Source: Amycolatopsis deserti
GTDB lineage: Bacteria; Actinomycetota; Actinomycetes; Mycobacteriales; Pseudonocardiaceae
Direction: 5' to 3'
Length of the DNA: 64,000 nt
Assembly (NCBI RefSeq): GCF_014653945.1
Contig: NZ_BNAU01000009.1
Span: 1 to 64,000 of the forward strand
Made by a program: the position numbers and the translations under genes. Below, one piece after another: positions 24,483-29,000 of the stretch (positions are counted from its first letter, which is position 1; every line of letters begins with the position of its first letter). The notes beneath the pieces are model-generated. The model had not been told where the DNA came from and did no database searches. It was given only the letters and a program-made list of their open reading frames with translations.

Positions 24483-25121
24483 GTGAAGGCTCGGGTGTGG
24501 GTGCCGTTCCTGGTCGTGGTGGCGGTGGCGGTTCTGGTGGTGGTGTGGCGGCCCGGTCCGGTGCCGCCGTCGAAGGCGAATCCGGGCACCGATCCCGGGG
24601 TGGCGCGGCAGCAGCTCGCCGAGCTGCAGGTCAAGCCGCGCGGCACGCTCAACGGCTACTCCCGCGAGAAGTACCCGCACTGGGACACCATCGAGGGCAC
24701 CTGCAACACCCGCGAGGAGGTGCTCAAGCGCTCCGGCACGAACGTGGTGGTGGGCAAGGACTGTTCGCCCACGTCGGGCACCTGGGTCAGCCCCTACGAC
24801 GGCGCGACCTGGACCAAAGCGTCCGATGTGGACATCGACCACATGGTGCCGCTCGCGCAGAGCTGGGTCAGCGGGGCGTCGGCGTGGACGCAGGCCCAGC
24901 GCGAGGCGTTCGCCAACGACCTGGTCCGCCCGCAGCTGTGGGCGGTCACCGACAACGTCAACCAGGCCAAGAGCGACAAGGCGCCGGACGAGTGGAAACC
25001 GCCGCTGGAGTCGTTCTGGTGCACCTACGCCACGGACTGGATCGAGGTCAAGCACTACTACCAGCTGTCCGTCACGACCGCGGAGCAGGCGGCGCTGAGC
25101 GACATGCTGAACCGCTGTTGA
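24483..25121 (+). CDS. Secreted HNH (DUF1524/GmrSD-type) nuclease
   Basis: 212 residues. A single N-terminal membrane or signal segment (VWVPFLVVVAVAVLVVVW, 5-22) precedes an exported domain. The active site is the DUF1524-type DVDIDHMVPLAQSW (Asp119-His120), followed by NLVRPQLWAVTDNVNQAKSDKAP-like residues, with Asn and Lys of the His-Asn-His finger. Cysteines 74, 94, 195 and 212 may form disulfides. This type is common as an extracellular nuclease in actinomycetes. GTG 24483 lies 70 bases from the divergent oxidase start. No immunity gene is apparent. Confidence 0.85.
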   Translation: MKARVWVPFLVVVAVAVLVVVWRPGPVPPSKANPGTDPGVARQQLAELQVKPRGTLNGYSREKYPHWDTIEGTCNTREEVLKRSGTNVVVGKDCSPTSGTWVSPYDGATWTKASDVDIDHMVPLAQSWVSGASAWTQAQREAFANDLVRPQLWAVTDNVNQAKSDKAPDEWKPPLESFWCTYATDWIEVKHYYQLSVTTAEQAALSDMLNRC

Positions 25122-25155
25122 CCTTCGACCCGCTCGAAGCCGCAGAATCTCCCGC

Positions 25156-26130
25156 ATGCTGACCATCAGCGCGTTCGCGCGGCGGGCCGGGCTCACGCCG
25201 AGCGCGCTGCGCTTCTACGACGACTGCGGTGTGCTCACCCCGGCCCGCGTGGACGAGGTCACCGGCTACCGCTACTACCGCGAGGACCAGGTCGAGCGGG
25301 CCGTCCGGCTGCGCGAACTGCGCGCCGCGGGCCTGCCGCTCGCGCAGGTCACGACGGTGCTCGACGGGCCGCCCGCGCAGGCGCGTGCGGTGCTGGAGGC
25401 GCACCGGCGGCGGCTGCGGGAGGACTTCCGGGCCGCGTCCGAGGCGGTCGGCCGCCTGCTGCCGGGCCCCGCCCGGCTCGCCGGCCTCGACCTGGCGAGC
25501 GCGATCCGGCAGGTCGCGCCCGCCGCGGGCGCGCCGCTGGACTTCGTGCTGATCGAGGCCGACGGCGACGAGGTCCACGTCGTCGCCACCGACCGCTACC
25601 GGCTCGCGATGCGGGTCCTGCGTCCGGTGCACGGCGGCACCGGCCGGTTCGTGGTGCCCGCGCGGGAGCTGGCCGCGCTCGGTCCGTGGTTCGCGCGACA
25701 GGACGAGGTGACCCTCGACGACACGACGCTGCCGCTGGTGGACGAGACCTTCCCGGACTACCGCGCCGTGCTCGACGCGCTGCCGGTCCCGGAGCAACGG
25801 GTCGTCGTCGACCGCGTCGCGCTCCGGGACGCGCTGCCCGCCACCGGCCCGGCCGAGCTGGTCCTCGGACCGGACCGGCTGACCGTCGGCGGCACGACGG
25901 TGCCCGCCATCACCGGCGACGACCTGCGCATCGGCTTCGACCCGGCCGTGCTCGGCGCCGCGCTGGAAGCGGGCGTCGGGCCCGACGTGCTGCTGGAGTT
26001 CGCCGGGCCGCTGCGGGTCACCCGTGTCCGGTCGGCCGATCAGGGATCGTTCACGACACTGGTGATGCCGGTCGCGCTCGGACCAGCCGTGCCAGGCTCG
26101 CCGACCGCAGCACCGCGAGCGGACCGATGA
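25156..26130 (+). CDS. MerR-type regulator fused to beta sliding-clamp domains II and III
   Basis: 324 residues. Residues 1-70 are a MerR DNA-binding domain (ISAFARRAGLTPSALRFYDD, then VTGYRYYREDQVERAVRLRELR) followed by a dimerising helix to about 105. From about 110 the sequence follows DnaN: ATDRYRLA at 144-151, FVVPARELAAL at 165-175 and FPDYRAVL at 199-206 belong to clamp domain II. VDRVALRDAL at 218, LRIGFDPAVLGAAL at 257-270 and VMPV at 303-306 belong to domain III. Clamp domain I is absent and seems replaced by the MerR part. Its 3' end overlaps the convergent antiporter gene by 80 bp. Function unknown: a clamp-shaped regulator or a sensor binding clamp partners are possible. Confidence 0.85.
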   Translation: MLTISAFARRAGLTPSALRFYDDCGVLTPARVDEVTGYRYYREDQVERAVRLRELRAAGLPLAQVTTVLDGPPAQARAVLEAHRRRLREDFRAASEAVGRLLPGPARLAGLDLASAIRQVAPAAGAPLDFVLIEADGDEVHVVATDRYRLAMRVLRPVHGGTGRFVVPARELAALGPWFARQDEVTLDDTTLPLVDETFPDYRAVLDALPVPEQRVVVDRVALRDALPATGPAELVLGPDRLTVGGTTVPAITGDDLRIGFDPAVLGAALEAGVGPDVLLEFAGPLRVTRVRSADQGSFTTLVMPVALGPAVPGSPTAAPRADR

Positions 26131-27232
26131 TCGCGAGCAGCAGCACGTAGCCCGCCACGAACGGCGCGACCCGCGAGTCCAGCCCGGCCGCCGCCGCGAG
26201 CGTGGCCAGGACCAGCGAGAACTCGCCGCGGGTGAGCACGGTGAGGCCGATGTTCAGCCCGGCCTGGCCGTCGAACGAGTGCAGCTTCGCCGCGATCGCG
26301 CCCGCGGCGAGGTTCAGCACGAGCGTCAGCGCCACGGCGATCAGCACCGGCACCACGACCGTGCCGACCGCGGCGGGGTCGATGCTGAGCCCGAAGATGA
26401 AGAAGAACAACGCGCCGAACGCGTCTCGCAGCGGCAGCACCAGCTTGTGGATGCGGGGCGCGACCTTCGAACCGCCGAGCATCATGCCGACCATGAACGC
26501 GCCGATCGCGTCGGAGACCCCCAGTTCCTCGGCGACCGCGGCGCCCAGCACGGCGACGCCGACGAAGCACACGGTCAGCAGCTCGTCGTCGGCCGAGCCG
26601 AACAGCTTCGACACCAGCCGGCCGCCCCAGCGGGCCAGCGCGGCCAGCGCCAGCAGGAAGCCGAGGGCCTTGCCGAAGTCGGCGAGCGCGGGCCAGAACG
26701 AGTCGGCGCCGGACAGCACCGGCTGCAGCAGCGCCAGGTACAGCGCGAGGAACAGGTCCTCGATCACGATGATGCCCATGATCAGGCGCGATTCCGGGGT
26801 GCGCGTGCGGCCGGTTTCGACGAGAAGCTTGGTCACGATCGCCGACGACGAGATCCCGATCGCCCCCGCGATCACCAGCGCTTCGCTGGAGCCCCAGCCG
26901 AGCAGGAACCCGAACGCGAGCCCGCCGCCGATGTTGAGCGCGAGGTAGACCAGGCCGGACACGGCGAGTTTGCGGCCGCCCTTGGCGAGGTCGTCGAGGG
27001 AGAACTCCAGGCCGAGGTAGAACAGCAGGAACACCAGGCCGAGCCCGGCGAGCACGCTCAGCTCGCCGGGGTCGTGCACCAGCGACAGGCCGGGGGTGTT
27101 GGGGCCGAAGATGAAGCCGGCCAGCATGAACAGGGGGATCGTGGGCAGCCCGATGCGGGCGCCGGCTCTGGCCAGCACGCCGGCGGCGAGGAAGGCGCCG
27201 CCGACGGCGAGCAGGGCGTGTCCGGTGTGCAT
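26051..27232 (-). CDS. CPA2-type cation:proton antiporter
   Basis: 393 residues, about 12 membrane segments with the Na+/H+ exchanger fold (KefB/GerN-like). Family features are GLVFLLFYLGLEFSLDDLAKGG, AGAIGISSSAIVTKLL and GAFMVGMMLGGS, with the paired acidic region EELGVSDAIGAF. There is no C-terminal TrkA-N domain. It exchanges K+ or Na+ for protons at the cell membrane. ATG 27232 has GGAGGG upstream. A small secreted-protein gene lies 72 bp upstream on the same strand and may share its transcript. The last 80 bp overlap the MerR-clamp gene on the other strand. Confidence 0.92.
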   Translation of the reverse strand: MHTGHALLAVGGAFLAAGVLARAGARIGLPTIPLFMLAGFIFGPNTPGLSLVHDPGELSVLAGLGLVFLLFYLGLEFSLDDLAKGGRKLAVSGLVYLALNIGGGLAFGFLLGWGSSEALVIAGAIGISSSAIVTKLLVETGRTRTPESRLIMGIIVIEDLFLALYLALLQPVLSGADSFWPALADFGKALGFLLALAALARWGGRLVSKLFGSADDELLTVCFVGVAVLGAAVAEELGVSDAIGAFMVGMMLGGSKVAPRIHKLVLPLRDAFGALFFFIFGLSIDPAAVGTVVVPVLIAVALTLVLNLAAGAIAAKLHSFDGQAGLNIGLTVLTRGEFSLVLATLAAAAGLDSRVAPFVAGYVLLLAIIGPLAVLRSASLARLVRARPASPVS

Positions 27233-27303
27233 GTCGTGAAGTCCCTCCAGGGCAGGGCGAGCGCACCGCGGTGGGACGCGGTGTGCGGAAACGGTCCGGG
27301 GCG

Positions 27304-27624
27304 TTACCTGGAGGGCGGCGCGCGGGCGCCGAGAGCGGTGCCCGGATGGTGGGTGAGCGGCGCGACGGCCAGCGCTGGCGGGTCTTCCGCGTGCGCGTCC
27401 GGTGGTCGCGTGACGGCGATCGGCGGAAGGTCCGCGACCGGCAGCGGAGCGGCGGTGACGTGCGGCAACGGCTCGGCCGCGAGGGCGGCGATGCCGTCCG
27501 GCACGGGCGGGTGCGGGTGGTTCTCCGGCGTCGTCGGCGTGACGAGGCTGAGCAGCAACAGCGCCAGGACGAGCAGGGCGCGGACGGACCGGTGCCGGGA
27601 GCTCGCACCCAGCTTCCGCCGCAC
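27304..27624 (-). CDS. Small proline-rich secreted protein, hypothetical
   Basis: 106 residues. A basic start (MRRKLGASSRHRS) and hydrophobic core (RALLVLALLLLSLVT, 15-29) form a signal peptide or anchor; the rest is an Ala/Pro/His-rich disordered chain without cysteines. GTG 27624 has GAGGAG seven bases upstream, the main support for a real gene. Not recognised as a family. It precedes the antiporter gene and could be co-expressed. Confidence 0.55.
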   Translation of the reverse strand: MRRKLGASSRHRSVRALLVLALLLLSLVTPTTPENHPHPPVPDGIAALAAEPLPHVTAAPLPVADLPPIAVTRPPDAHAEDPPALAVAPLTHHPGTALGARAPPSR

Positions 27625-27673
27625 AACACTCCTCTCGACCTCGGTCCGGTATGTCCAGAATACCAGACAGTAG

Positions 27674-27688
27674 AGTCCACAGTGGACT
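27674..27688. promoter_or_regulatory. Palindrome in the divergent promoter region
   Basis: AGTCCAC-A-GTGGACT is a perfect 7+1+7 palindrome between the small secreted-protein gene (start 27624) and the MFS gene (start 27783). Possible operator, but the inner CCACAGTGG also occurs inside coding sequence elsewhere in this window, so the evidence is weak. Confidence 0.3.
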
Positions 27689-27782
27689 GATCACGTCCGG
27701 GTGGTCCGTGCCACAACGGGGAATGCGAGCGCGATGTCCGGTGTTCGGTGTTGCCGGGTGGATCCGGTCGAGTGGAGGCGGT

Positions 27783-29000
27783 TTGAGCACGACAGCGGTC
27801 ACGGCACCGGCGAAGGTCAGACGGTCCCCCGGAACTCTGCGTTACGTGCTCATCCTCGGCGGGCTGTCGGCGTTCGCGCCGCTGTCGATCGACATGTACC
27901 TGCCCGCGCTCCCCCGGATGGCCGACGACCTGCACAGCTCGGCGCCGACGCTGCAGTTGACGCTGACCGCGTTCATCATCGGGCTGGCGCTGGGGCAGCT
28001 GATCGCCGGGCCGCTGTCGGACTCGCTCGGCCGCCGCCGTCCGCTGCTGGCCGGCCTGGCGCTCTACGCCGTCGCGTCGGTCCTGTGCGCGGTGAGCCCG
28101 ACCGCCGAACTGCTGGTCGCGGGACGGGCGGTGCAGGCCCTGGGCGCGGCCGCCGGGATGGTGATCGCGCGGGCGTGCGTGCGGGACCTGTTCGCCGGCA
28201 CCGCGATGACGAAGTTCTTCTCGATGTTGATGCTGGTCAGCGGCCTGGCGCCGATCCTGGCGCCGGTGATCGGCGGGCAGGTGCTGCGGCTGACGTCGTG
28301 GCGCGGGGTGTTCGTGGTGCTGGCCGTGTTCGGCGCGCTGCTGCTGGTGGCCGCGGCGCTGGCGATGCCGGAGACGCTGCCGGCGCAGCGCCGCCGGCCG
28401 GCCCGGATCGGCTCGACGCTGCGCGGGTACGCCGGACTGCTGCGGGACCGGTCGTTCGTCGGGTACGCGCTGTCGGCCGGGCTGATGTTCGCCGGGTTGT
28501 TCGCCTACATCTCCGCGTCGTCGTTCGTGCTGCAGGAGCTGTACGGGCTGAGCCCGCAGGAGTACAGCCTGGTGTTCGGCGCGAACGGGCTGGGGATCGT
28601 GATCGCCGGGCAGGTCAACGGGCGGATCGTGGGCCGGGTGGCCGAACGGACGCTGCTGACGGTCGGCCTGTGCGCCTCGGCGGCCGGCGGGATCGGGGTG
28701 CTGGTGGCGGCGGTGGCCGGGCTGCCGCTGCCGGTCCTGCTGGTGCCGCTGCTGGTGATGGTGTCGAGCATCGGGCTGGTCATGCCGAATGCGTCGTCGC
28801 TGGCGCTGGCCGAGCACCCGCACAACGCCGGGGCGGCGTCCGCGCTGCTCGGGGTGATGCAGTTCGTGGTCGGCGGGCTGGCCACGCCGCTGGTGAGCCT
28901 CGGCGACGAGGCGAGCGCGGTGCCGATGGGCGCCGTGATGGCCTCGTTCGCGGTGGTGGCGCTGCTGGTGTTCGGGACGCTGACCCGGCGGCGGGGCTGA
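27783..29000 (+). CDS. Bcr/CflA family multidrug efflux MFS transporter
   Basis: 405 residues, twelve membrane segments. Helix 1-2 region APLSIDMYLPALPRMADDL and loop GPLSDSLGRRRPLL are the Bcr/CflA signature, and GRAVQALGAAAGMVIARACVRDL is the typical helix 4-5 block. These proteins expel drugs such as bicyclomycin, florfenicol or peptides by proton antiport. TTG 27783 is chosen because GGAGG lies five bases upstream and the conserved part starts soon after; no ATG fits. One base after the stop begins a small membrane-protein gene, so the two are probably one operon. Confidence 0.92.
   Translation: MSTTAVTAPAKVRRSPGTLRYVLILGGLSAFAPLSIDMYLPALPRMADDLHSSAPTLQLTLTAFIIGLALGQLIAGPLSDSLGRRRPLLAGLALYAVASVLCAVSPTAELLVAGRAVQALGAAAGMVIARACVRDLFAGTAMTKFFSMLMLVSGLAPILAPVIGGQVLRLTSWRGVFVVLAVFGALLLVAAALAMPETLPAQRRRPARIGSTLRGYAGLLRDRSFVGYALSAGLMFAGLFAYISASSFVLQELYGLSPQEYSLVFGANGLGIVIAGQVNGRIVGRVAERTLLTVGLCASAAGGIGVLVAAVAGLPLPVLLVPLLVMVSSIGLVMPNASSLALAEHPHNAGAASALLGVMQFVVGGLATPLVSLGDEASAVPMGAVMASFAVVALLVFGTLTRRRG

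Follow-up and report, generated by a model that had tools for sequence, protein, structure and literature searches.

A MerR-family regulator carrying sliding-clamp domains II and III in actinomycetes, with a predicted operator at its own gene and a TPR-type partner gene

The window analysed here is a stretch of 64,000 nucleotides from Amycolatopsis deserti. It contains a gene for a MerR-type regulator whose C-terminal part is built from two domains of the β sliding clamp, DnaN (Table 1). Upstream, at 24483-25121 (+), lies a nuclease gene that Pfam assigns to the GmrSD_C/HNH type and whose product has, by eye, a hydrophobic, signal-like N-terminus; the gene ends inside the -35 element of the MerR-clamp promoter, its stop codon overlapping that element. 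Downstream, a Na+/H+ exchanger gene at 26051-27802 (-) overlaps tail-to-tail with the final 80 nt of the MerR-clamp gene, and because of this overlap the variable tail of the regulator (residues 311-324) lies inside the exchanger gene. Regulation of the window's neighbours, i.e. the HNH nuclease, a hydroxy-acid oxidase named by eye and the Na/H exchanger, was considered and rejected on the occurrence of these neighbours among the 80 loci (below).

Table 1. Positions in the window of the MerR-clamp gene, the parts of its product and the predicted promoter.
Feature	Position	Strand	Remarks
MerR-type promoter/operator (predicted)	25118..25148	+	sequence, spacing, conservation
-35 element, TTGACC	25118-25123	+	
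Spacer, 19 bp	25124-25142	+	
Dyad, CTTCGA-N5-TCGAAG	CTTCGA 25123-25128; TCGAAG 25134-25139	+	held by the spacer
-10 element, CAGAAT	25143-25148	+	
-10-to-ATG gap	25149..25158	+	7 nt; ATG at 25156
CDS, MerR-clamp fusion	25156..26130	+	324 aa
MerR winged HTH	25156..25365	+	residues 1-70; Pfam MerR_1 1.3e-16 over residues 3-70
Long helix, position of the MerR dimerisation coiled coil	25372..25458	+	residues 73-101; AF2 secondary structure
Clamp domain II	25462..25764	+	residues 103-203; shorter than in other family members
Pocket segment ATDRYRL	25585..25605	+	residues 144-150; E. coli 171-177
Pocket segment FPDYRAV	25750..25770	+	residues 199-205; E. coli 241-247
Clamp domain III	25765..26079	+	residues 204-308; ring-interface E304 absent
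Pocket segment LVMPV	26059..26073	+	residues 302-306; E. coli 360-364; closes a highly conserved family stretch

The N-terminal winged helix-turn-helix (HTH) is recognised by two MerR profiles, PF13411 (60.9 bits, cut-off 21.6) and PF00376 (35.2 bits, cut-off 28.2). Structure comparison assigns residues 103-308 to the clamp fold of domains II and III, with an approximate boundary between the two, i.e. the fold that the protein shares with DnaN (PF02767/PF02768, TIGR00663). No match to clamp domain I (PF00712) was found in the protein at E<=10 and the clamp profile aligned from position 131 onward only; a precomputed PF00712 call is present on some homologues. Fold and profile evidence thus agree with the sequence-only reading of this locus, which had described a MerR HTH joined to clamp domains II and III without domain I. 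The alternative named in that reading, a GyrI-like effector domain, is contradicted by the clamp fold of the C-terminal part and by the lack of any GyrI-family match at E<=10; domain searches also returned no TipAS-family match. Matches to the human antigen CD276 were dismissed as chance because the matched stretches, taken singly, give E 0.12. In layout the protein resembles the GyrI-like MerR regulators BmrR and EcmrR, which share the N-terminal MerR HTH, the long helix, a C-terminal domain and a 19-bp-spacer promoter with a dyad, but in which the effector domain is GyrI-like whereas here it is a clamp. On the basis of the structural model, the protein is predicted to dimerise through the long helix (residues 73-101). 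The genuine DnaN of the same genome is encoded separately from the MerR-clamp gene.

A protein search returned at least 1278 relatives at E<=1e-3, of which 120 were listed; among these the nearest is from Amycolatopsis ruanii (95% identity), and most go under the names 'MerR family transcriptional regulator' or 'DNA polymerase III subunit beta family protein'. These NCBI/UniRef names denote the same proteins and carry no function, operator, partner or regulon. The locus set consists of the best 80 of 199 relatives, with one genome per species scanned, and all 80 come from actinomycetes by title. No paper describing a MerR-clamp fusion was found by title or abstract among the matches listed from open-licence PubMed Central full text, which is not proof that there is none, and a term search of the 2021 MerR review (PMC9909328) gave no occurrence of sliding clamp, DnaN or TPR. 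The family and literature searches are in agreement with the suggestion, made from the sequence, of an actinobacterial family without a functional description. In the class sample, at least 16 of 296 genomes contain a match of 138 bits or more; this line was set after seeing the gap in scores (138.7 to 118.7) and misses subfamily C (below), and the count may be too low because at most nine candidates were scored per genome. Profile matches occur in 325 of the 396 genomes of the phylum sample, a figure that is not a count of fusions because the profile also matches ordinary DnaN, and six genomes score above 150 bits. Among 200 genomes of the window's family, 82 have a match at E<=1e-3, DnaN-like ones included.

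When 42 clamp parts were placed in a tree, fusions and DnaN fell into separate groups (support 100/99). Subfamily A, to which the window protein belongs, has 18 rows (85/77), subfamily B comprises L123-L132, L192 and L193 (100/96), subfamily C comprises L138-L140 (100/99) and the nine DnaN rows group at 100/99. The tree is consistent with a single origin of the fusion, and no more than consistent, because the clamp tree is unrooted. Alignment A1 holds 49 proteins from the 120 matches listed together with the window protein, and A2 holds 45 of 78 clamp parts. In the tree comparison, truncation of the subfamily B sequences at 250 residues left artefactual gaps at 360-365, where MP is in fact present. 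The three subfamily C loci (L138, L139, L140), Streptomyces-like by sequence, encode a near-canonical pocket with LLMPVR behind the same operator type, and perhaps represent the ancestral form. Two pairwise comparisons of near relatives, with few changes, give dN/dS values of 0.21 and 0.43 for the clamp part, against 0.09 and 0.15 for the HTH. At the sequence level, the clamp part thus appears to be under purifying selection, weaker than that on the HTH, and to evolve faster. Frameshifted or truncated copies were observed at G146:C1:5517169-5517737 (L158), G791:C15:345576 (L133), G667:C7:96355 (L134) and L226, and these broken copies suggest that the gene is dispensable in some species.

The residues of the E. 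coli clamp that form the client pocket and the dimer interface are listed in passages of a review (PMC11139829), which allows the fusions to be compared with DnaN column by column. At the ring interface, the E304 column holds E in 9/9 DnaN rows and in 0/33 fusions. The window protein lacks equivalents of E298, E300 and E301, the last two being variable in DnaN as well, and the state of I272/L273 depends on the alignment: one shows no I or L in the 33 fusions, whereas in a second L makes up 47% of the I272 column. The mean net charge of four inner-helix segments is -2.6 in subfamily A, -3.3 in B and -2.0 in C, compared with a DnaN mean of -0.8, and the ranges overlap. The loss of E304, together with that of domain I, suggests that the clamp part has given up clamp function. 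The sequence-only reading had proposed a half ring at a promoter or a link between transcription and replication state. Domains II and III do hold the client pocket, and clamp clients could in principle bind there and report on replication. However, domain I is absent, E304 is lost in 33/33 fusions, the inner helices carry more negative charge on average than those of DnaN, if with overlapping ranges, and the operator sites (below) lie at the regulator's own gene, at TPR genes or at other genes, with no replication gene recognised behind those examined. A half ring, or any working clamp, was rejected because domain I and E304 are lost, and we consider the half-ring and replication-state explanation, taken as a whole, very improbable.

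Conservation of the client pocket was measured in 78 of 81 sequences, L066, L077 and L096 being omitted because they lack the cutting motif. In E. coli numbering, the core of subsite I is almost invariant in these 78 sequences: L155 97%, T172 99%, R176 100%, L177 95%, P242 97% and M362 100%, with V360 replaced by L in 96%; P363 is also present in 100%. The columns R152, R246, V247, V344 and R365 vary, of which R152, R246 and V247 are assigned to subsite I and R365 to subsite II. In subsite II, subfamily A has D at N320 (91%) and V at Y323 (87%), whereas N320 is N in 9/9 DnaN rows and Y323 is Y or F in 9/9; both positions are replaced in subfamily B also, and subfamily C has N in 2/3 and F in 3/3. 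At H175, which bridges the two subsites, 92% of the family have Y; this is no fusion-specific change because 7/9 DnaN rows share the Y. Judged from the alignments, then, core residues of subsite I are retained and subsite II is altered in subfamilies A and B, a combination that suggests that the pocket is still used. Across the 17 pocket columns, conservation exceeds that of randomly drawn column sets (mean 0.81 against 0.65, permutation P 0.007); it may be partly a consequence of the fold, as the segments contain core residues and the P value is modest.

A pocket of this kind could serve a sensor or sink resembling TipA, in which the clamp copy stands in for the clamp as the target of antibiotics that bind it, such as griselimycin, and binding raises the amount of the protein, which absorbs the compound. 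TipAS, the effector domain of TipA, has a fold that differs from the clamp. The retained hydrophobic core of subsite I would suit such a role, and the named family members are actinomycetes, the same group as the makers of griselimycin. According to passages of PMC11139829, griselimycin is a Streptomyces cyclic peptide that occupies the β-clamp pocket, and in PMC7762955 TipA is described as a 'minimal autoregulated' MerR-type system whose effector domain binds antibiotics. Against this, subsite II is altered, the sole conserved neighbour found is a TPR-type gene whose product has no Pfam enzymatic domain, and no paper on a MerR-clamp regulator was found by title or abstract among the matches listed. 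We regard this explanation as unlikely.

The gene is preceded by what reads as a textbook MerR-type promoter. According to PMC9909328 and PMC8113463, MerR-controlled promoters typically have spacers of 19-20 bp, and the spacer here falls in that range. TTGACC stands at the corresponding position in 79/81 loci, being absent in L054 and L070, and an in-frame ATG or GTG follows 37-39 nt past its first base in 79/79. As TTGACC was the search string, its 100% conservation follows from the search itself; this does not apply to the spacing, to the TTC/GAA arms or to the NANNNT form of the -10 element. Ten subfamily B loci (L123-L132, with TTGACT in L131) and the three subfamily C loci have the identical arrangement. 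One of seven pairs of positions in the dyad arms covaries better than shuffles (positions 10/18, P 0.012) and, with this single covarying pair, it is conservation that supports the dyad. From the distance between the -10 element and the ATG, the message is predicted to be leaderless. The MerR-clamp protein is predicted to bind the dyad and, with the operator at the front of its own gene, to act as an autoregulated switch, a prediction that we hold with the moderate confidence given to the whole of the explanation proposed below.

Directly downstream of the fusion gene and on the same strand, a TPR-like gene was found in 55/80 loci (tblastn with three TPR queries; best 80 of 199 relatives). No adjacent TPR gene was found in the other 25/80 of this set, and in 6/55 the adjacent TPR is truncated (<160 aa). 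The gap between the two genes ranges from -11 to +146 nt, and in several loci the TPR start overlaps the stop of the fusion. In the class sample, the TPR gene is adjacent in 13/16 strong-match genomes, with subfamilies A and B included, and in one of the 13 it shares an open frame with the fusion; subfamily C has no TPR neighbour and no TPR at a second operator site. In L123, MerR, clamp and TPR form a single open frame of 544 codons, a single case that a sequencing error or the loss of a stop codon could explain. The assignment as TPR rests on one partner above threshold (L049, TPR_12, 33.4 bits, cut-off 30.1), the other three tested lying below the cut-offs, and on an all-helical AF2 model (pLDDT 95.6), whose top Foldseek matches are mostly TPR proteins but weak (best E 1.5e-3, none at 1e-3). 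Alignment A3 combines 38 of the 55 TPR loci with 7 TPR proteins among the 120 matches listed. A stretch S-L-H-L-N-L in a TPR helix, sought by eye as a clamp-binding motif, may merely be TPR consensus.

The operator also occurs elsewhere in the genomes. The 31-base operator pattern, allowing up to three mismatches and with the reversed pattern as control, has two sites in the 7.7-Mb genome of the window (control 0). The first is the MerR-clamp gene itself (0 mismatches). The second, at G000:C2:1019703-1019733, has three mismatches, all in the -10 element, and the ATG that lies 37 nt past the initial T of its TTGACC opens a 134-aa TPR gene, a homologue of the partner. With a shorter, 21-base core (up to one mismatch), 19 genomes of the genus gave 27 sites (control 1), of which 14 are MerR-clamp starts (13 confirmed running into the clamp part and one frameshifted), 7 are TPR genes and 6 lie elsewhere, with both kinds of gene in 6 genomes. 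Of the 6 elsewhere, one (C2:443805, one mismatch) is the third core site of the window's genome and has no start codon at the expected position. In 16 other genomes, picked for holding a fusion, the scan gave 28 operator sites (control 0). MerR-clamp promoters account for each of the 12 exact matches and for three more; no TPR gene was found at the remaining 13, some of which precede other genes at equal distance. Among the 31 genomes in which the adjacent TPR is missing (25) or short (6), a TPR gene stands in trans behind the operator in 7 of the 25. The operators concerned depart from the 31-base pattern by 3-5 mismatches, and the genomes are those of two Amycolatopsis, three Kribbella, one Prauserella and Streptomyces lavendulae. 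The start lies at the leaderless distance in 5/7 and further downstream in 2/7. Separate lineages thus have a TPR gene that is distant from the fusion gene and carries the operator of the latter. An operator-bearing TPR was not found in the other 18/25: 11 had no TPR match (two Kribbella), 6 had operator-less TPR genes only and in one (L087) the TPR adjoins a second, apparently broken MerR-clamp copy. Five operator-less TPR genes (L236, L238, L239, L242, L249) each follow a similar stretch (CCCTTCAC..GATC..) and are perhaps a different, stand-alone TPR family. In three genomes (L215, L217 and L221), small genes of about 175 aa of the MSDYYNAF type start 37-38 nt past a related MerR-type site, TTGACCCTCACG-N2-GCGTGAGG, possibly another MerR regulon.

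By analogy, the nearest mode of action would be that of the TipA class: the MerR-clamp protein resembles TipA and SkgA in having its own promoter and very few sites, and differs in that a second gene, the TPR gene, stands under the same operator. This partnership is also what would be expected if the clamp surface were a scaffold that docks the TPR protein or RNA polymerase, its pocket segments being structural and the signal being carried by the TPR protein. Such docking would suit the adjacency of the TPR gene, with translational coupling at several loci or a shared open frame, its co-regulation in trans in several lineages, and the most conserved family stretch, VGPDVLLE...VRSADQGSFTTLVMPV, which is wider than the pocket and reaches past it. 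However, many loci have no TPR match, and the change in subsite II while subsite I is kept in subfamilies A and B suggests a pocket in use. We consider a scaffold of this kind doubtful.

The pair might instead be a small mobile toxin-antitoxin or defence module, autoregulated by happenstance. Neighbour families were drawn up with a crude GC3 gene caller (73/81 loci anchored), and the second frequent family occurs in 32 loci at varying positions. The few conserved neighbours beyond the TPR gene, the patchy distribution and the transposase or IS genes nearby in 3/4 plasmid cases would be in keeping with a mobile module. On the plasmids L223, L224 and L225, transposase, IS or TnsA-like genes lie near the MerR-clamp gene and the gene downstream of it, which suggests that the pair may move together. 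Next to the full-length plasmid copies a 'hypothetical protein' ORF of 169-217 aa follows in 4/4, as judged by position and length only. However, PADLOC matches the MerR HTH (mad1) only and nothing in two TPR proteins, and no relative was found in viral contigs. In addition, 11/80 loci, from close relatives, retain one or both of two neighbours, an oxidase and an HrpA-like helicase (named by eye); all 11 are what we take to be Pseudonocardiaceae. The nuclease and the exchanger stand beside the fusion gene in L042 and L043 only, within the best 80 of 199 relatives. A phage origin was rejected, as eight viral-contig stretches fit a pattern and none encodes a relative. We consider a mobile module very improbable.

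We propose, with moderate confidence, that the MerR-clamp protein is a one-component autoregulated switch of the MerR family, in which retired clamp domains II and III form a pocket sensor and the TPR protein is a dedicated partner. The protein would dimerise through its long helix and sit on the operator dyad, and its pocket would take up a short hydrophobic ligand, either a clamp-client-like peptide or a peptide segment of the TPR partner; the ligand is possibly supplied or presented by the TPR protein. Occupancy of the pocket would change the shape of the dimer and untwist the over-long spacer, which would switch on the regulator's own gene and the TPR gene, and the TPR protein would then join the regulator as co-sensor or feedback partner. 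A part of the replication machinery seems to have been reused as a sensor, because the DNA site fronts the regulator's own gene and, in several lineages of bacteria, that of a dedicated helper; we found no description of a core replication component reused in this way in a transcription factor.

A more specific version of the switch, which we regard as unlikely, is prompted by the natural clamp-pocket ligands, such as griselimycin, that Streptomyces makes. The retired clamp copy might be an integrated decoy that detects agents directed against the client pocket of the real clamp, either natural products that bind the clamp, griselimycin for example, or foreign proteins that do so, and that raises the levels of itself and of its TPR partner. 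If so, it would be a bacterial counterpart of the decoy domains of immune receptors, and if the pocket binds clamp-directed compounds the promoter would be a ready reporter for them. The textbook MerR site, the adjacent TPR gene, the TPR genes in trans under the operator and the contrasting pattern of pocket and ring are new, and with them the family gains an operator, a partner and a regulon, all predicted. Because the operator is short, strictly positioned and rare per scanned genome, binding, induction and ligand screening are directly testable. The window's own genome also encodes another MerR HTH (L002, 1495-2463, +), 50% identical to that of the window protein over residues 1-112, and fused to what reads by eye as a PP2C-type phosphatase.
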